NCBI GenBank assembly: GCA_022794255.1
Contig: JAAWEL010000036.1
Span: forward strand, 1 to 64,000
Length of the DNA stretch: 64,000 nucleotides
Origin: Lachnospiraceae bacterium
Lineage (GTDB): Bacteria > Bacillota > Clostridia > Lachnospirales > Lachnospiraceae
Direction: 5' to 3'
This document shows, piece after piece, positions 35,794 through 45,873 of the stretch; position 1 is the stretch's first letter; every line of letters begins with the position of its first letter. Position numbers and translations under genes: made by a program. Below the pieces are notes generated by a model. That model had not been told where the DNA came from. It did not search any database and was given only the letters and a program-made list of their open reading frames with translations.

Positions 35794-37071
35794 TCATTCA
35801 AAGCGGTAGCGATAACACGCTATACAGATCTCATCTCCTGTGTTAAGCTTTGCTTCCTCATTATTTTCCAGCAAGCGCCCGCAAAGCTTCGTGCCATTCG
35901 TTGAATTCAGATCCTTTATCCGGTAAGTATCCCCATCCTGATCAATTCGCAGATGCAGCCGGCTAACCGTATCCCGCTCCAACTGAAAATCTACCAGACT
36001 TTCCTGTTTTCCTATTACAAACGGATAATATAATATAGGAATGTCTTGTTCTTTTGGATTCAGCGCTCTTAATATTCTTTGACGTTTGTTATCAGAAAAA
36101 TCAGCCAGCAGTTGAGTTCCCGGTCCTGCAGATGGTGTGTCCTTCTTCTGTTCATCATCCATGTCAATGATCTCCCTCTGCCACAGCTTTCCCCCCTTTC
36201 CAAAATCTCTTTCCTCCTCTTCGCTGTCCTGGAACATCATCTCCCAGGGTGGCCGTATTGGCAGATCTTTCTCCTTGCTATTTCTCAAAAAATATCCTCC
36301 GCTCCAATCCTTCCATTTTTGTTTCCATGAAGCTCTCTTCCCTGGTGTTTTTTCCTGCTCTTTTGTACTTAAATAGCTTTCTTCTCTCTGTCGTTTGTCT
36401 GGATTCTTTCTTTGATTTCCAGAAATATTTAACCGCTTTTTTCCTGTTTCTTCATATTGTTTATAAACATCTGGCTCATCAGATATCTCTTGCCCTGATA
36501 TATCATCCTTTTTCTTCTCTTTATCATTTGTCTTTCCCTGCTGTAAAAGACGCCCCAAATCCTCCATCCCATAATTTTCTTTTCTAGTCTCCTGATATAG
36601 GCCATAGGCCAATACCACACTTTCCTTATCTTGATGATCAACGCTTCCCAGCAAATACTCTAATAATTTACTGAAATCTTCTGGAAAATTTCTCTCTATG
36701 CCCGGAACAAAACATAACCAAACACGGAATGTATCCGGATCCACATATAAATACTGAGGCTCCAGCAAAATTCTCTCCTCCATCAGAAGATATCGTTCCG
36801 CCCGTTCCAGTACTCCAAAGATCCCAATAACCAGCCTTCGTATTTCCTCTGCCTGAATATTTCGGTTTTCCAATATTCTGGACAATGGTTGTCGTGACGT
36901 AATCTCATAATAGAATCTCACTCCGCTATCCATTTGCCGGAGCTGGAACCGCAAAACGCCCTCAATCGAATTCCTTGACATCATCTGGCTTTCATACCCC
37001 TGCCATGTCAATTCCTCTGGATCTATAATCAGATAATTATGTTTAAACTCCCTCCGATAACTAATTTTCAT
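35794..37071 (-). CDS. DUF6382-like/FHA domain protein of the Tad cluster
   Basis: C-terminal FHA: FVIGKQESLVDFQLERDTVSRLHLRIDQDGDTYRIKDLNSTNGTKLCGRLLENNEEAKLNTGDEI. Confidence 0.85.
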   Translation of the reverse strand: MKISYRREFKHNYLIIDPEELTWQGYESQMMSRNSIEGVLRFQLRQMDSGVRFYYEITSRQPLSRILENRNIQAEEIRRLVIGIFGVLERAERYLLMEERILLEPQYLYVDPDTFRVWLCFVPGIERNFPEDFSKLLEYLLGSVDHQDKESVVLAYGLYQETRKENYGMEDLGRLLQQGKTNDKEKKKDDISGQEISDEPDVYKQYEETGKKRLNISGNQRKNPDKRQREESYLSTKEQEKTPGKRASWKQKWKDWSGGYFLRNSKEKDLPIRPPWEMMFQDSEEEERDFGKGGKLWQREIIDMDDEQKKDTPSAGPGTQLLADFSDNKRQRILRALNPKEQDIPILYYPFVIGKQESLVDFQLERDTVSRLHLRIDQDGDTYRIKDLNSTNGTKLCGRLLENNEEAKLNTGDEICIACYRYRFE

Positions 37072-37092: not shown

Positions 37093-37452
37093 TTATTCTG
37101 CCAAGCTCCACATTCTCAGAGAATTTTCCGGTCTGAATATCGGCACTGTAAGCTCTAATCCCCAACGGATTCCCTGAGACCGTCTTATAATTTCCTGCTC
37201 ATCCTTATTTTCGATCTGGTGACGCGCTCTCTCTACCTCCTCATGCAAAACAAATTTTCCCACAGTCTCTCCTCGGACATGGAAGGCCTGATTTAACAGA
37301 ATCATTATAACAAAGAAAATAATTGCCATCACACCTGCCGCCTCAACCGTATAGCTGGCGATCACTTCTTTCTTTAGACCATTTTTCAATACCCCGAAAA
37401 AAATATGTACTGCGTGAAAACAGCGATAAAACATCCTTTTTATATGAAACAC
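37093..37452 (-). CDS. TadE-like minor pseudopilin
   Basis: KKEVIASYTVEAAGVMAIIFFVIMILLNQAF prepilin-like hydrophobic segment. Confidence 0.65.
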   Translation of the reverse strand: MFHIKRMFYRCFHAVHIFFGVLKNGLKKEVIASYTVEAAGVMAIIFFVIMILLNQAFHVRGETVGKFVLHEEVERARHQIENKDEQEIIRRSQGIRWGLELTVPIFRPENSLRMWSLAE

Positions 37453-37461
37453 ACTCCTTCC

Positions 37462-37920
37462 TCATATTCCGGTTCCTTGTGCTATTGTCAGTAAAATCCC
37501 AGGGATCGCTGCAAATGGTAAAAAAGGCACGGTTATTTTTCCAATATTCGTTCCTTTATGAATCCAGTTCCATGTAAACAGGGCCAATCCATATATTCCA
37601 CACAATATAATTCCCATACACAGCATAAAAAAATTTTCCCAAAAGCTCATCATTAAGCCACTTACCACAAAAAAATATCCATCTCCCATTCCAATGCTGC
37701 CCTCGCATATCCTTCCAAAAAGCAAGAGCGCGACTCCCAGACAGACACTTTGCACATGGCTTTTCCACATAAAATCACTTCCAAGAACAATCCACAGATA
37801 TCCATTAATGCCCAATGCCAATATACCAAACAACGCAAAAACCCATACTTTTACTTTCTTGCAATGCAGATCCTGCATTGCAGACACCAACAAAAATGCC
37901 AGAAATAACCCTTTTCTCAT
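37462..37920 (-). CDS. A24 prepilin peptidase-like protein (second copy)
   Basis: AMQDLHCKKV and SIGMGDGYFF aspartate motifs; multi-TM. Confidence 0.75.
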   Translation of the reverse strand: MRKGLFLAFLLVSAMQDLHCKKVKVWVFALFGILALGINGYLWIVLGSDFMWKSHVQSVCLGVALLLFGRICEGSIGMGDGYFFVVSGLMMSFWENFFMLCMGIILCGIYGLALFTWNWIHKGTNIGKITVPFLPFAAIPGILLTIAQGTGI

Positions 37921-37978: not shown

Positions 37979-38896
37979 TCATCTTCCGCAGTAAGAACAC
38001 GCACCCAGATGTTCCACCTCTGACAGTTTTACTGCCCGTGCAAATGCCACAATTGCCCTGCAGCTTTTCCCGGAATGATAGCTACTACCACTCGGCATAA
38101 TAAATACCACTCTCCCGGCATTTTTCCCGCAGACTGAACAGGGATAATATTTTCCTCCGCTATCATTGCGCATGTTTCCCACCTGTTCCTTAGACACAGA
38201 AGTTAATTGGTTTGCCAGATAGTGACATTCTCTGCTTCTGTGATAGCGAGTACTGTTTTTTCCCACATAGACAACCGGATCCTCCTCTTTTTGGCCTCCT
38301 TCTCCTTTGCTGTAGTCTTTTCCTTCCCTTCCAACCCACGCCCTTCGTCTGCACCGGGCCGTCCTCTCTAATGCAGGTATTCCAAGCACCGGAAATGGCA
38401 GATGGATCTCATAGTCTAAAACCAGGTCAATGCTTTCCCCATCCTCTAAAACTTGAGAACGAGCCATGGTAATATGTCTTACTGCATTTGTATCCACATA
38501 CTCCCCGATCCTGGCCTGTGCATATCCCTGTGCTGCACCAGATATCAGGTGCCGACAAAACTCTTTCGCAAAGTCTCCTGCCCCTGGTATCGCAAATATC
38601 TTTCCTTTATCCTGCGCATCTTTCACATACGCATATTGGCTGAAATCCTCCCCCATCATTTCCAGTGCTGCCTGCATCCGCCGCTCCGTGTTCATAACCT
38701 TCATAGGAAGAATCAGGCAAACCGAAGCAAAAATAAATAAAGTGAGACACATCACAGCCTCCAAAGTCAGGGAAGCCGGGACAGACAGGAATGTCTTTTT
38801 GCCATGACAAGCCTTTCCTGTATGTATTTTGAATTCATTTAGGATTCGTACCTGGAGAGTCACGATTTTTTTATTTTTTGTCCTGGAAAAAGACAT
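37979..38896 (-). CDS. TadE-like protein with tandem C-terminal Cys/His (Ada-like zinc) motifs
   Basis: SLTLEAVMCLTLFIFASVCLILP; C-terminal YHRSRECHYLA...YYPCSVCGKNAG and YHSGKSCRAIV...LGACSYCGR. Confidence 0.75.
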   Translation of the reverse strand: MSFSRTKNKKIVTLQVRILNEFKIHTGKACHGKKTFLSVPASLTLEAVMCLTLFIFASVCLILPMKVMNTERRMQAALEMMGEDFSQYAYVKDAQDKGKIFAIPGAGDFAKEFCRHLISGAAQGYAQARIGEYVDTNAVRHITMARSQVLEDGESIDLVLDYEIHLPFPVLGIPALERTARCRRRAWVGREGKDYSKGEGGQKEEDPVVYVGKNSTRYHRSRECHYLANQLTSVSKEQVGNMRNDSGGKYYPCSVCGKNAGRVVFIMPSGSSYHSGKSCRAIVAFARAVKLSEVEHLGACSYCGR

Positions 38897-38917: not shown

Positions 38918-40864
38918 TTAATAGCTGCGCTCGATTGCCACTTCCATAGGGTAACAATGGTCTTTCCTTCCAGCAATTCTCTCCACAAATCCCAAAGAAA
39001 AAAACACATGCTTCCCCACCAAACTTCCCTGAATCTTTGCCTGGTAAATTCCGCGGCGCATCCGGAAACTGCTCTGCCTCCGGCAAATATTCATCTGAAT
39101 CATATCCATCATACGGTATTCCTGACACACAATCTCATCCATAAACAACAATATCTTTAACCAGGAAAGATAACCCAGTCCATCTTCCCCACCACCTGTT
39201 TCGCTCCTTCCTTCTCGCCCCATAGCCAGTAACTGTTCCAAATCTAAGGTCCAGTGTTCGGATTTTTTAAAAATCACCACTTGTTTTCCCGCCAACAAGC
39301 CCCGAATATCCATCAAAGACTCGCCCAAAGCCCACACAGACATCACAAAAAAGGCTGTAAGAAAAACCAACGGAGAAAATCCGGTCACTCCAGTGATTGC
39401 CATTGCCAGCTTTTGAGCCTCCTGCCGTTTTTGTCCATCTCCCATAATGTGAAGCAGGTTTAAGCCTTCCCGAATGGCAAGAAGCCGTTTTACTGCACAG
39501 ACAAGATTTTCCTCATCAGCACTTTTCCCTCCGATCAGATATTCTATCTCATAAGATAAACCACCTGTGCCTTTTACTCCCACATTCTGATTGTATTCCT
39601 CTTCTATGAGGAAATACCGAAAAAATTTTCCACAATATTCATTAATAAGTAAATGATCCAACAAAGTGCCTTCCTCTGTTCTTCCTGTACAAATCTCACT
39701 ACCAGAGGGAAGCTCTGTATTCTCTAAAATTCCCTCCGAAACAGCTTTCCCGTCTGGCAGCACCAGATCTAAAAGTCCGGAATTATACAAACTTTCCACT
39801 TGCTTTAGCCAGTTTTCTGTTTTTTTGTCCTTGACCCCATGGGAAAAAGACAAGAGGCGAATGGAAAGCTGTTGAAAATGATATTTTACTGGTGACCATA
39901 GGGCATCTAAATCCGGCCCATCATCTTCATCATCATCGCTTTCCCACTCTCTGATAATTCTTTCGACCTCCAGCGCTTCTTCTATCACGGATTCTACCAG
40001 GGCTATCTGGGCATATGACTGCTCCTCTAAGGCTTCTATCTCTCTACGGCGTTTTCCATCCTGATCTACATAGGCCTCAAACTGATATATCTCCGTCTCC
40101 AGCTGTCTTTCTGCCAGACTGCTGCAATCCTCTTTCTTCTCCTCAAAAAATGATCTGCTTTGTCCCAGTTTTTGGGCCAGAACATCTGCCTGTTTTGAAT
40201 AGGTTTTTACCAGTCCAGGCATCCGTTTAAACTCCCGGATCAGCTCTGTAGCTGTACGGCAAAATCCGGATCCATCATATCTGTGAAGCTGTAAAAGCGC
40301 TTCCTGTTTCTTGTCCATCTGCGTTCTTTGACTTTCACTGATATTTTCCAGAGCTTTTTCCAGCTTTAATGCATCCTTTGCATGTCCCCGGTAAACCTCT
40401 GCCACATCCTTGACTGCCTCTGCCTGCTGCCCATCCTCCTTAAGCTTATCCACTGTGTCTGCATCAAAATCCATGTCCCATACTCCATATTTCATATAAT
40501 CCAAAATCTCTTTTTCCAGATAAGCTCCTCCATCATCTGTAGCTCCCAGCCATTCCTCCACTTTTACCTTTTGAATCTCCATGGGATACCAACCTTCCTT
40601 TTCCAGATAAGGTTTTATAAAACCGGAAAAATCAGCTTCCAGCTCCTCTTCTCTCTCATATTCCACAAACAGCAAGCGATAGGAATCCCAGAGCTGACGG
40701 TGATACTGGCTGAATACAGAATCCATTGCTGAAGCCGCACTTGTCTGCAGATACCATCGTGCTCCCGCTGTACGGGCCGATTCCAAAAGTCCGCAAAGAA
40801 GCGCAAATATGCACATCATTACCATGCTGATAAAGATCGTTACCTGTCCTTTTAGTACTTTCAC
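38918..40864 (-). CDS. Large TadG/DUF5702-like pilus-associated protein
   Basis: N-terminal GQVTIFISMVMMCIFALLCGLLESARTAGARWYLQTSAASAMDSVFSQYHRQLWDSYRLLF; cluster context. Confidence 0.75.
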   Translation of the reverse strand: MKVLKGQVTIFISMVMMCIFALLCGLLESARTAGARWYLQTSAASAMDSVFSQYHRQLWDSYRLLFVEYEREEELEADFSGFIKPYLEKEGWYPMEIQKVKVEEWLGATDDGGAYLEKEILDYMKYGVWDMDFDADTVDKLKEDGQQAEAVKDVAEVYRGHAKDALKLEKALENISESQRTQMDKKQEALLQLHRYDGSGFCRTATELIREFKRMPGLVKTYSKQADVLAQKLGQSRSFFEEKKEDCSSLAERQLETEIYQFEAYVDQDGKRRREIEALEEQSYAQIALVESVIEEALEVERIIREWESDDDEDDGPDLDALWSPVKYHFQQLSIRLLSFSHGVKDKKTENWLKQVESLYNSGLLDLVLPDGKAVSEGILENTELPSGSEICTGRTEEGTLLDHLLINEYCGKFFRYFLIEEEYNQNVGVKGTGGLSYEIEYLIGGKSADEENLVCAVKRLLAIREGLNLLHIMGDGQKRQEAQKLAMAITGVTGFSPLVFLTAFFVMSVWALGESLMDIRGLLAGKQVVIFKKSEHWTLDLEQLLAMGREGRSETGGGEDGLGYLSWLKILLFMDEIVCQEYRMMDMIQMNICRRQSSFRMRRGIYQAKIQGSLVGKHVFFSLGFVERIAGRKDHCYPMEVAIERSY

Positions 40865-40929: not shown

Positions 40930-41118
40930 TTAATATACTTCCTTGGATTGACTGTTAATCTCTTTAAAGATATCTTCCAGCAACTTATTGATTTGTCCTT
41001 TAAAAATAATAACCAGCCCAATCAACACCACCAGAATCAACACTACTTCAATAACACCAACCCCATCCTCTTCTCTCAAAAATTCCAGTATCTCCTCGTT
41101 TAAGCTTCTCTTTTTCAC
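40930..41118 (-). CDS. Flp1-family type IVb pilin
   Basis: EDGVGVIEVVLILVVLIGLVIIFKGQINKLLEDIF. Confidence 0.88.
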   Translation of the reverse strand: MKKRSLNEEILEFLREEDGVGVIEVVLILVVLIGLVIIFKGQINKLLEDIFKEINSQSKEVY

Positions 41119-41143: not shown

Positions 41144-42361
41144 CTATCCCATTGTCATCATTGCTGGTACCATGATCATCACCATCACAATGCCCAACAT
41201 CAAAAACAATGGCAGCAAAAGCTTTGTCCCTGCCTCCTCGCCTAAGCGGCGAGCCAGGTTTTTCCGTTGTTCCAGGGCATCTGCCATCTCTGTCTGCAAG
41301 ATCGCCCTCATATTTTTTGTTCCTGACTTCCGGTTCTGTTCCAGCAATCCACTTAATTTCAAATATGGTTGCAATCTGCATCTTCTGCCAAATTCTCGGT
41401 AAGCCTCTCCCTCGGACATGCCCCCCTGCATCTGATAATAGGTTCTGCTCATCTCCTCATAAGCAGCCCGTTTTTGCTGCTTTTTTTGTTTCCTCCCTGT
41501 CTCATAATCCCACACCATTTTCTCCCAGGCATTGCGGACTGTCAGACCTGCACCAGTCAAAACCATAAGCTTAGACAAAACGTCCGAATAATCCAATAAA
41601 AGCTCCCTCTCCCGTTTCTGGTTTTCCTGCCTTATCTGGCTTTGCTGCCTTGCTGTCAGCAAAACTGCCAGAAGGATTCCCAACAAAATAACCGGCTCAT
41701 ACCCAGAATTTTCCTCGGTCCAATAGCTTAGCTTCCTTCCCTGAAAGCTTTCCGGCAGACTTATCCAAGGTTCTTCTTTTTGTTCCTCATCTCTCTGCCG
41801 CAGTACCATGAGAAACTCTGCAATTCTTCTTTCCTCCTCATTTTGTATTGGAGGAAGCACTCTCACCGGAAATTCATAACTTTGCTTAAAAGCTCCGGCC
41901 GAAAGTTCCACAGACAAAATAACAAACAGCTCCTTTTCAGCCTCCTTCAAAAGCTTTCCGGATGGAGCCAGTATCTCTGAATCAGAGGAATACCACCGCA
42001 ACCGCACCCCTCCATCTATCTGAGATGGCAGTGACAAATCACTTCTGACCTCCATCAATGATGGATTCTCTCCCAAAATCTGCTCTCCCATCTGTTCCAT
42101 GATTTTCTCAAAAACTTCTTCCGCCTCCTTAGCCGTATAAATTTGTGGTTTTACCGGAACAGTCACTGCTACTGGCTCATCCCCCAGCCCACCCACCCAC
42201 ACCTGATATTCTCTCTCCTCACCTCCATGGCTTTCTCTGTTAATACGCATATCCGGCGATATAATACTCTGCCCAGTGTCTGTCAGCCTGAGTGTCCCAT
42301 AAAGTACAATGCTTCCAATAACACAAACCAGAGGAATAAACCATTGTTTTTTGCCTTTCAT
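41144..42361 (-). CDS. tadC: TadC-like type II/IV secretion inner-membrane protein
   Basis: YSDVLSKLMVLTGAGLTVRNAWEKMVWDY; C-terminal LEQRKNLARRLGEEAGTKLLLPLFLMLGIVMVMIMVPAMM. Confidence 0.85.
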   Translation of the reverse strand: MKGKKQWFIPLVCVIGSIVLYGTLRLTDTGQSIISPDMRINRESHGGEEREYQVWVGGLGDEPVAVTVPVKPQIYTAKEAEEVFEKIMEQMGEQILGENPSLMEVRSDLSLPSQIDGGVRLRWYSSDSEILAPSGKLLKEAEKELFVILSVELSAGAFKQSYEFPVRVLPPIQNEEERRIAEFLMVLRQRDEEQKEEPWISLPESFQGRKLSYWTEENSGYEPVILLGILLAVLLTARQQSQIRQENQKRERELLLDYSDVLSKLMVLTGAGLTVRNAWEKMVWDYETGRKQKKQQKRAAYEEMSRTYYQMQGGMSEGEAYREFGRRCRLQPYLKLSGLLEQNRKSGTKNMRAILQTEMADALEQRKNLARRLGEEAGTKLLLPLFLMLGIVMVMIMVPAMMTMG

Positions 42362-42367
42362 TCTGTC

Positions 42368-43237
42368 CTACACCTCTATCTCCAATATCTTTTTTGCCGT
42401 CACATAAGAAATCAGATACATCACCAAGCATATGCTCATCAATATCCGCCCCATACCGGTACCATACATCTGTCCGAAAAAACCTGGAGATGAGCTTTCC
42501 ACATAAAAGACTATAAAAAACGGAATCATGTTCATAATCTTCTGTTCAAACTGTCGGGATGCTGTCATGGTAAGAATCTCTTCCCTTACCTGCATCTTAT
42601 CCCGGATTATCTCTGCCGTGTGCCTCATAATACTTCCCAGATCCCCGCTGCTGCGTTTTGCCACAGAAAACACCTCGGCAAAGCTTTGCACATCCTCCAG
42701 TCCGCTTCTCCTGGCAAAATCCTCTAAGACCTTTTCCACAGGGCGATTGGTCCGAATCTGCTGTACCATAAATGCATATTCCTGAACAATCATTCCATCT
42801 CTTCCATATAGCATAGACAGCTCCTCCACGCTTACCGACAATGCATTTTCTATAGAAAATCCTGCACTGAGAGAAGCTGCAATAATCATCATGCTCTCTT
42901 TGAACTGGACCGCTAGCTCCTTTTTCCTCTGCCGGATCCTCTTGCGTCTCTCTGTCGCAGCCCCTACAAGCGCCAGAGGGCTTATCCACAAAAACACCTT
43001 TATACTCCGGTAAAAGGTAAAGGATATCAGCATACATACCCCGGCCCCCTTTCCTATTCCCAGAGCAAATTCCCACAGCTTCAGCCTGTAGCAGTCATAC
43101 CGGATAGCCGGCTGCCTTAAGTTTTCCCACTGCCTGAAGGGAACCGATTCTTTTAAGCTGCCCCCGGACTGTTTTCCCGCCTCCTGGCTCTTCCTCAAAC
43201 CGGAAGAGCGGGTTAAGCCGTATCTCTCCCTCCTCAT
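42368..43237 (-). CDS. tadB: TadB-like secretion protein; ORF opens at 43324, ATG (MRRERYGL) at 43237
   Basis: FKESMMIIAASLSAGFSIENALSVSVEEL...DVQSFAEVFSVAKRSSGDLGSIMRHTAEIIRDK. Confidence 0.85.
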   Translation of the reverse strand: MRRERYGLTRSSGLRKSQEAGKQSGGSLKESVPFRQWENLRQPAIRYDCYRLKLWEFALGIGKGAGVCMLISFTFYRSIKVFLWISPLALVGAATERRKRIRQRKKELAVQFKESMMIIAASLSAGFSIENALSVSVEELSMLYGRDGMIVQEYAFMVQQIRTNRPVEKVLEDFARRSGLEDVQSFAEVFSVAKRSSGDLGSIMRHTAEIIRDKMQVREEILTMTASRQFEQKIMNMIPFFIVFYVESSSPGFFGQMYGTGMGRILMSICLVMYLISYVTAKKILEIEV

Positions 43238-44312
43238 AATTTCCCACCTCCACAATCTCCAACACCCGCCTGCTTCTGTCCCGCAGCCTTCCCAAATGTA
43301 CCAGAATATCAATGGCAGAGGCAATCTGACTACGCACTGCGGGAAGAGGCAGATCTGCCCCCATCAGTGCCATAGTCTCCAGCCTGGATAACATATCCTT
43401 AGGGCTGTTCCCATGACCCGTGGAAAGACTCCCCGCATGCCCGGTGTTTAATGCCTGCAGCATATCAAGACACTCCTTTCCCCGCACTTCCCCCACCACA
43501 ATCCTGTCAGGCCTCATCCTCAAGGATGCACGAATCAAATCACTGATCTCAATTGCTCCTTCCCCCTCTCCATTGGCATTGCGAGTCTCCATCCGTACCA
43601 GATTAGGAATCTGACGAATCTGCAGCTCCGCCGAATCCTCTATTGTTATGATCCGTTCTGTCTCAGGAATAAAACCAGACATGGCATTTAAAAATGTGGT
43701 TTTCCCAGAACCGGTCCCACCGCTGATAAACAGGTTATACCCAGATCTAACCAGTTTTTCTAAAAACTCTGCCACCTCCTTGGTCAGAGAATTGAGTGTT
43801 ATCAACCTCTCTGCTGTGATTGGTTCAGGAAATTTTCGTATTGTGACTACCGGACCGTCCAAAGCTATAGGAGGAAGCACCACATGGACCCGGGCACCAT
43901 TTTCCAGCCGGGCATCTGCAATCGGATGAGACACATTGACTGACCGGTTAATACGGCTCACTATCTGCTGAATCATATCCTCCAACTGCTCTTCCCGCTC
44001 AAATCCGTGGTTCCACTGGCTGATAGTCCCCTTCTTTTCCACAAATATATGATCTTTGCCATTTACCATAATCTCTGTCACATCCGGGTCATCCACCAAC
44101 TCCTGGAGAATATCCAAACGCCGGAATGCATCATAAAGCCGGGTTCTGAACTCTAACCGCTTCTTTAGAGGAAGGTAGTTATCTTTTGCTGCTTCCTGAA
44201 TCACCCTGTTAATACATTGGTTCAGCTCTTCCTCCTCAATCCGGTTCCAGCTCTGCAGCTCTGCCCGTATCTGCTCCTTTAGCTGTTCCAAAATACTGCT
44301 TTCCTCCCTCAT
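43095..44312 (-). CDS. tadA: TadA/CpaF secretion ATPase
   Basis: FISGGTGSGKTTFLNAMSGFIPETERIITIEDSAELQI; MRPDRIVVGEVRGKECLDMLQALNTGHAGSLSTGHGNS. Confidence 0.97.
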   Translation of the reverse strand: MREESSILEQLKEQIRAELQSWNRIEEEELNQCINRVIQEAAKDNYLPLKKRLEFRTRLYDAFRRLDILQELVDDPDVTEIMVNGKDHIFVEKKGTISQWNHGFEREEQLEDMIQQIVSRINRSVNVSHPIADARLENGARVHVVLPPIALDGPVVTIRKFPEPITAERLITLNSLTKEVAEFLEKLVRSGYNLFISGGTGSGKTTFLNAMSGFIPETERIITIEDSAELQIRQIPNLVRMETRNANGEGEGAIEISDLIRASLRMRPDRIVVGEVRGKECLDMLQALNTGHAGSLSTGHGNSPKDMLSRLETMALMGADLPLPAVRSQIASAIDILVHLGRLRDRSRRVLEIVEVGNYEEGEIRLNPLFRFEEEPGGGKTVRGQLKRIGSLQAVGKLKAAGYPV

Positions 44313-45316
44313 CTTTTACCTCCCTCCTGCCCTTTCAACAGATTTCTGATAAAATCCCCCATTTCTCCCCATAGCAGTTGTTCAAGATAAGTCTCTGTCT
44401 GCCATACCGCACCAGGACGGGGAAGCTTTAAAATACGTACTCTCTCCCACAGATACGGCCGTCCTGACCTTATCAAATATTCTTTCCATTCTTCCATCTT
44501 AGCAGTTGAAACACAGTCCTCCTTTGCAGGGGTATAAATCACATTACACAATTCCAGAAGTGGTTCCATCCCTCTTCCCAAATGGCCTATATCCACCACA
44601 ATCACATCATAGACTCCTTCCGCCGCAATCTGGCCAATGAGACCGGCCAACTCACCTCCTTGTATCTCTGCCAAATCCTCCCCATAAGCTACTGGTGGAA
44701 TGTAGTCAAGACCTCCCCAGTTATGGACCACCGCGCCTAGCCCCATGCGGGTATACGTTCCTTGCCGATATTCATAGATCAAATCAGAAAGACTTGTTTC
44801 ATGGATGATCCCCATCAGCCTTGATAATCCGGAATATTCCTCAAGGCTCAAAAATAATGTCCGTGATTCTCTTGCAAAAATCTGTCCCAGCGTGAGAGAA
44901 AAACCAGTCTTGCCACATCGATTTACAGGAGAATAGACTCCCATCACCACACTTTTTATTCCAACTGCCACCGGGGGAATTTTCTCCGGCTGTACCTGAT
45001 AGCATGCCATCACCTCCCGCAGCACCGCATCAGATGCCTGATATTTGTAGATGACCGGCAAATCCTCTCCCGAAATCTCCCGGCTCTCACTAAGCCTTAT
45101 GATTTGAGCGACCTTTATCTGAGAAAGGTGACCTTTATCAACCTCATCTCCTATCAGCAGCAACTCCAATGGCTGTTCCTTTGCGAAAGCCTCCATCCGT
45201 GTAATGCTGTTAAAAGCTACCACTGTAAAGGGAATCTGCTCCCTCTGATTGGCAAAGTCCGCAAAGCGGTCTGCATAAAATGGATCCACATCGTAGACCC
45301 CCATAATCCGTTTCAT
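44309..45316 (-). CDS. TadZ/CpaE-like P-loop ATPase; ORF opens at 45424, MKRIMGVYDVD preferred
   Basis: Deviant Walker A YSPVNRCGKTGFSLTLGQIFA; IIVVDIGHLGRGMEPLLE-type Walker B; operon position. Confidence 0.82.
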   Translation of the reverse strand: MKRIMGVYDVDPFYADRFADFANQREQIPFTVVAFNSITRMEAFAKEQPLELLLIGDEVDKGHLSQIKVAQIIRLSESREISGEDLPVIYKYQASDAVLREVMACYQVQPEKIPPVAVGIKSVVMGVYSPVNRCGKTGFSLTLGQIFARESRTLFLSLEEYSGLSRLMGIIHETSLSDLIYEYRQGTYTRMGLGAVVHNWGGLDYIPPVAYGEDLAEIQGGELAGLIGQIAAEGVYDVIVVDIGHLGRGMEPLLELCNVIYTPAKEDCVSTAKMEEWKEYLIRSGRPYLWERVRILKLPRPGAVWQTETYLEQLLWGEMGDFIRNLLKGQEGGKR

Positions 45317-45360
45317 AAATCTCCTCTCTGTCACCACACAATCTAGCCCCTCAAAAATGG

Positions 45361-45873
45361 CTATATCTTCATGGCAGCGGCCCCAGAAATAATCAAATAT
45401 AAATAAGTTCCTGCAGCCATGCATGGTGCCATCGGTATGGTATTTTGAAATTCCTTTACTCTATCTTTGCAATATTTCTTTGTTCTCCCTGTCCGAAACA
45501 TCTGCATGAAATATACAGAAAGATAAATAAGACGTGTTTTTAGACCTTTACCGTGTCCAAGACAGCACAGCGACCAGAATGCTCCGATCAACATTCCTGT
45601 AAAAATTGCTTCCAATCCCCCATCCATGCCCAAATATCCGGCAATCACAGCCATCAGCTTTCCGTCACCAGCGCCCATCATCCCCATTCGAAATAATAGA
45701 AATGCAAAAATCATCACAACCAGCGCTGCCTGCAAAAACACTTCGCCCCGACACCAGATTCCAGCCACCGATCCGGCTATAAGCCACCAGTTCCATATCT
45801 TTCCCTCTGACACATCTGTCCAGGCAGCTCCTGCCAAAATCAGGCACAATAATCCTGTCTCTATCCCTTTCAC
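45361..45873 (-). CDS. A24 prepilin peptidase (TadV/CpaA-like), first copy
   Basis: AAWTDVSEGKIWNWW and GMMGAGDGKLMAVI. Confidence 0.9.
   Translation of the reverse strand: MKGIETGLLCLILAGAAWTDVSEGKIWNWWLIAGSVAGIWCRGEVFLQAALVVMIFAFLLFRMGMMGAGDGKLMAVIAGYLGMDGGLEAIFTGMLIGAFWSLCCLGHGKGLKTRLIYLSVYFMQMFRTGRTKKYCKDRVKEFQNTIPMAPCMAAGTYLYLIISGAAAMKI

Follow-up and report, generated by a model that had tools for sequence, protein, structure and literature searches.

The window analysed here is a stretch of 64,000 nucleotides from a Lachnospiraceae bacterium (GenBank assembly GCA_022794255.1, contig JAAWEL010000036.1), and all coordinates without a locus name refer to it. Its reverse strand encodes, at 37979–38896, a TadE-like minor prepilin of 305 aa with tandem C-terminal Cys/His modules, recognised from its sequence, its homologues and a structural model. 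The flanking genes, all on the same strand, form a complete monoderm Tad locus. On one side lie genes for a DUF5702 protein, TadG-like by position and an obligate neighbour of the prepilin (38918–40864; Pfam E = 2.4e-76), a candidate Flp major pilin of 62 aa, proposed from its position and its sequence GVIEVVLILVVLIGLVII (40930–41118), a TadC-like platform protein with a weak T2SSF match (41144–42361), a TadB-like platform protein (42368–43324; T2SSF, E = 1.3e-7), a TadA/CpaF ATPase (43095–44312; T2SSE, E = 2.6e-53; TIGR03819, E = 2.1e-87), a protein that matches no family and is putatively CpaE/TadZ-like by position (44309–45424), and a TadV-like prepilin peptidase of the A24 type (45361–45873; E = 5.8e-9). 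On the other side are a second A24-peptidase-like membrane protein (37462–37920; E = 1.8e-4, below the Pfam cut-off) and, judging from its sequence (ASYTVEAAG...), a probable second small TadE/F-like prepilin of 119 aa (37093–37452). A protein with DUF6382 and FHA domain matches closes the locus (35794–37071). At its N-terminus, the TadC-like protein has a stretch similar to the atrophied bacterial Ig domain (aBig_2, E = 3e-5, slightly short of the cut-off), which is unusual for a Tad platform protein. Elsewhere, the same genome carries another type IV pilus cluster, which encodes a PilT-type ATPase (TIGR01420, E = 1.5e-125) and a T2SSF protein (L149:7520–12740 on G000:C54). The ComGA search of this genome yielded no PilB-sized extension ATPase, and several relatives also had only the 360-aa type.

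The prepilin starts with a basic cytoplasmic leader (residues 1–41, 38774–38896) that ends at a predicted prepilin peptidase site, A41/SLTLEAV, with T and E preceding a hydrophobic helix; T44 and E46 are at least 90% conserved among 62 homologues. Helix alpha-1, hydrophobic and then amphipathic (residues 42–96, 38609–38773; helix 45–96 in the AlphaFold2 model), would serve as membrane anchor and filament core, and is followed by a modelled pilin head, a small beta domain with strands between residues 139 and 185 (38342–38482). The remaining interval, 37979–38275, corresponds to residues 208–305 and the stop codon. It comprises module 1 (residues 208–261, 38114–38275; putative ligands H219, C224, C253 and C256), into which an RNxxGGKY loop is inserted (residues 243–250, 38147–38170), and module 2 (residues 262–305, 37982–38113; putative ligands H274, C279, C300 and C303). 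The preliminary description of this DNA spoke of a TadE-like pseudopilin with two Cys/His motifs at a predicted extracellular C-terminus, and the analysis supports both parts of this description. The two quoted pairs, YHRSREC...YYPCSVCG (residues 218–257) and YHSGKSC...LGACSYCG (residues 273–304), are present in the 305-aa ORF. Moreover, the order of basic N-terminus, prepilin motif, helix and globular part predicts that the prepilin is processed and that the modules lie outside the membrane. Both modules have the form H-x4-C...C-x2-C, the H-x4-C spacing being equal in the two copies, and shuffling the last 105 residues 200,000 times never produced the double pattern. The window protein does not match the Pfam TadE model (PF07811), which recognises 23 of the 62 homologues at E ≤ 0.1 (best E = 2.4e-7). 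The protein is best read as a TadE-like minor pilin, encoded inside a Tad/Flp pilus locus.

Loss of the Cys and His residues in orthologues would have spoken against the preliminary description, which also asked about their conservation in the Tad clusters of relatives; it turned out to be near-absolute. In the alignment of the 62 homologues, which range down to ∼20% identity, every row has H219, C224, C256, H274, C279, C300 and C303, and C253 is Cys in 61. As these homologues had been gathered by similarity, they are a biased sample for this purpose. For an unbiased test, 20 further genera were picked without reference to the prepilin, and the gene that follows DUF5702 was read in each: all 20 encode a TadE-type protein with both modules, the only loss being that of the aromatic residue before the second His in one of them. 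A homologue is present in 64 of 99 related genomes; named relatives with the protein are isolates 1XD21-70, 1XD21-29 and D16-56.

At the family level, 60 Lachnospiraceae genomes, each from a different genus, were searched for DUF5702 alone, and it was found in 58. The tandem adjoins DUF5702 in a 21st new genome (G120) as well, and in each of the remaining 36 genomes, among them the one studied here, the gene immediately after DUF5702 in the same orientation encodes the homologue (36/36). Both modules are present in all 57 family genomes with the canonical DUF5702 locus. Five family genomes (G016, G495, G501, G046 and G109) have neither the tandem modules nor DUF5702, and in G030, also without the tandem, the sole DUF5702 protein is a large paralogue. 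The tandem also occurs in further families of the wider order, and all ten such genomes tested likewise carry DUF5702. Since the pair stands beside the same partner gene in every locus-bearing family genome examined, it probably belongs to the regular working equipment of the Lachnospiraceae Tad pilus.

The AlphaFold2 model, built from the 62-row alignment, has a mean pLDDT of 84, with about 86 in the modules, and places a disordered basic leader, the helix, the small beta domain and two compact modules in succession. Each modelled module has a pair of short strands, then a Cys turn, a further strand, and a short helix that runs into C-x2-C. The loop R243-N-x-x-G-G-K-Y250 has no counterpart in module 2 or in the single modules of other proteins; where present, it is near-invariant (R/K in 96%, N in 53/54, G in 54/56, Y in 55/57). 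In a tree of modules, with support of about 0.8 over about 45 columns, 59 of the 62 copies of module 1 fall into one clade and 53 of the 62 copies of module 2 into another, indicating that the duplication is old. This suggests that the roles of the two modules have been divided since, and the two copies probably cannot replace each other. No Pfam or NCBIfam model matches the modules, and sequence searches of the PDB, whether started from the entire protein, the complete alignment or a module profile, gave no credible relative. Foldseek with both models against the PDB returned no match at E ≤ 0.001, and Ada was not among the matches listed, the domain being small and the search weak. The domain pair is thus real, strongly conserved and apparently unnamed. 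A reading of C-x2-C as a c-type haem site was rejected, as the position after it is usually G and shows no conserved His.

Single C-terminal modules were found on other proteins when 250 genomes of the phylum were searched. The preliminary description had associated single motifs with the termini of nucleases and competence-type proteins, and they do occur on SNases, ComEC/Rec2-like metallo-beta-lactamases and Endonuclease_NS proteins, as well as on copper-amine-oxidase-N, M78-like and small membrane proteins. In the SNase, ComEC/Rec2-like, Endonuclease_NS and copper-amine-oxidase-N carriers (L094–L116, L134), as in the pilin, the module always stands at or near the C-terminus of an exported-looking protein. 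These carriers differ in having a single copy, no RNxxGGKY insertion and no pilin part. TadE-like proteins with one module also exist (L097, L117). In G120, a single module ends a metallo-beta-lactamase protein (L158:1501–2592) and a choline-binding-repeat surface protein (L159:1498–2085). The genome studied here encodes no further protein with modules, and a link to its own ComEC was rejected for this reason.

The Ada-like character claimed for the motifs is borne out by profile comparison, which connects the tandem to single modules (A2 versus A5, E = 1.3e-17), single modules to Ada-type tails (A5 versus A4, E = 2.8e-14), and the tandem to the Ada-type tails directly (A2 versus A4, E = 2.3e-6). 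The modules share with Ada_Zn_binding (PF02805) the order and spacing of the metal ligands, [CH]-x3/4-C...C-x2-C, and the Gly/Tyr-x-PC-x2-C end. By contrast, the first Cys, the methyl acceptor of Ada, is replaced by His in all module copies, H-x4-C has an extra residue, and the modules are tandem, are predicted to lie on an outer surface, and are not carried by a DNA repair protein. Nor does PF02805 match them: the window protein is below the Pfam gathering cut-off, and nothing in its genome is above it. At L101:1–1638, two secreted SNases are encoded side by side, one with a short YH...C...C-x2-C module and the other with Ada_Zn_binding, above the Pfam cut-off, in the same place. This is natural evidence suggesting that the short module and Ada_Zn_binding are related or interchangeable. 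Metal binding by Ada is established, and since the H/C-x3/4-C...C-x2-C ligands are kept throughout this ladder of profiles, we infer that the modules bind zinc.

One genome of family f13 (G072) has DUF5702 and lacks the tandem. Its syntenic TadE homologue beside DUF5702 (P0002; L164:2705–3784 on G072:C33) has a CDI-nuclease-like C-terminus in place of the modules (CDI_toxin_EC869_like, E = 3.9e-8, above the Pfam cut-off; PDB 4zqu, E = 4.7e-4). The alignment covers the last 90 residues only, leaving the N-terminal third of the toxin domain unaligned. S-x-K, which we take to be the active-site motif of this family, appears to be lost, as S-A-K of CdiA-CT aligns with S-I-V in P0002, and no small immunity-type ORF adjoins the gene in L164. 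These three observations disfavour a toxin, and the domain may instead be a co-opted nuclease fold. The replacement, albeit a single case, fits an exchangeable outer domain and adaptable tips of Tad minor pilins.

Taken together, we favour, with moderate confidence, a TadE-type minor pilin of a Tad/Flp pilus whose outer end consists of two old, non-equivalent Ada-like modules, stabilised by zinc and belonging to a tip complex. The prepilin would insert in the membrane and be cut by the locus's own A24 peptidase. From the ligand pattern, each module probably coordinates a single zinc ion with its His and its three Cys, which would make these small modules rigid. By analogy with Kil tips, the pilin, the DUF5702 protein and the other TadE/F-like pilin may form an initiating complex located at the tip, where the module pair would probably act as an exchangeable outer domain. 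The RNxxGGKY loop of module 1 could provide a specific contact surface, either for an outside ligand or for a partner in the complex. Among outside ligands, nucleic acid tentatively comes first, given the proteins that carry the module elsewhere and the replacement domain in f13, with contacts to DUF5702 during assembly not far behind in likelihood.

The model for such a tip is the Kil Tip complexes of Myxococcus, where TadE/F/G tips with variable outer domains were described and proposed for Tad pili generally (PMC12075869). They resemble the present case in having variable outer domains and a Tad locus that encodes a prepilin-processed minor pilin next to a TadG-like protein; here, however, the TadE-type subunit bears paired Ada-like Cys/His modules. 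That work extends tips to other Gram-negatives, and its text mentions neither Firmicutes nor zinc (PMC12075869). Two published points count against placing the TadE modules at the tip. The far end of Kil tips is formed by the TadG-like pilin, not TadE (PMC12075869), and in Micrococcus luteus TadE/F were undetected in sheared pili, which favoured a basal role (PMC4322843). The M. luteus Flp/Tad pilus is, like the present one, a Gram-positive Tad pilus requiring TadE/F-like minor pilins; it serves transformation, and it differs in that such modules were not reported for it (PMC4322843).

It is possible, and we propose it with due caution, that the paired modules are a receptor binding extracellular DNA, with the Tad pilus used for DNA uptake, ComEC being the transporter, or for DNA-based attachment in biofilms. 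The nearest relatives of the domain are found on secreted nucleases, ComEC-like hydrolases and Ada, and the f13 replacement domain likewise has a nuclease fold. M. luteus uses Flp/Tad pili for transformation (PMC4322843), and in Liberibacter such pili are reported to be essential for DNA uptake (PMC8513845). Fourteen of the 60 family genomes have no ComGA/PilB/PilT-type ATPase at E ≤ 1e-20, and the complete, single-contig genome G058 has a Tad locus and no such ATPase at the same threshold. The genome studied here, on the other hand, has the separate type IV pilus cluster in L149, and its need for a further DNA-uptake pilus is not obvious. The tandem region is mildly basic (+6 in the window protein, family median +3), but its charge ranges widely, from −11 to +12. 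ComEC is present in 60/60 family genomes, including those without a Tad locus, so that its co-occurrence is uninformative. Finally, modules of the same kind are carried by proteins without a known role involving DNA (copper-amine-oxidase-N, M78-like and choline-binding-repeat proteins), which makes the inference of DNA no more than suggestive.

Alternatively, the modules may be purely internal parts that pack against DUF5702 or the other minor pilin during assembly and have no outside ligand, which we consider a reasonable but doubtful alternative. The strict synteny with DUF5702 and the conservation of a loop outside the ligand set, RNxxGGKY, point in this direction, and TadE/F have been proposed to sit at the pilus base (PMC4322843). 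However, the f13 genome combines DUF5702 with a module-free TadE, and the presence of single modules on unrelated secreted proteins is better explained by a portable binding domain. A disulfide-stabilised or redox domain in place of zinc is improbable: there are six outer cysteines, and predicted Tad tips of Myxococcus contain disulfides (PMC12075869), but three Cys and an invariant His per module make an odd number for disulfides, H/C-x3/4-C...C-x2-C fits the Ada metal site, and a gut anaerobe is an unfavourable setting. Metal capture or sensing by the pilus is very unlikely, and less likely than structural zinc, despite eight essentially invariant potential ligands, as zinc in two such CHCC sites is normally structural, a filament would offer sites for only a few ions, and no metal-transport genes were recognised among those of the Tad locus.

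The Lachnospiraceae form one of the major bacterial families of the gut, and the Tad locus, judged by the distribution of DUF5702, is almost universal among them; literature searches on DUF5702 and on Lachnospiraceae Tad pili found nothing specific. A near-invariant, unnamed outer domain of a minor pilin offers a direct handle on what the pilus contacts, be it DNA, the host surface or other cells, and its conserved residues are a clean set to mutate. In the boldest version, which we think rather unlikely, the Lachnospiraceae Tad apparatus would be a nucleic-acid-capturing pilus with paired Ada-like zinc modules at the tip, derived from secreted nucleases, a CDI-type nuclease domain filling the same slot in a sister family, and the Tad tips of monoderm gut bacteria would be a site at which nucleic-acid-handling domains are exchanged. 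Exchangeable Tad tips, if confirmed here, would extend to monoderm bacteria. The DUF5702 domain itself also occurs outside the canonical Tad locus, in large paralogues of 830–1300 aa (G030:C67, G031:C15, G053:C19 and others).
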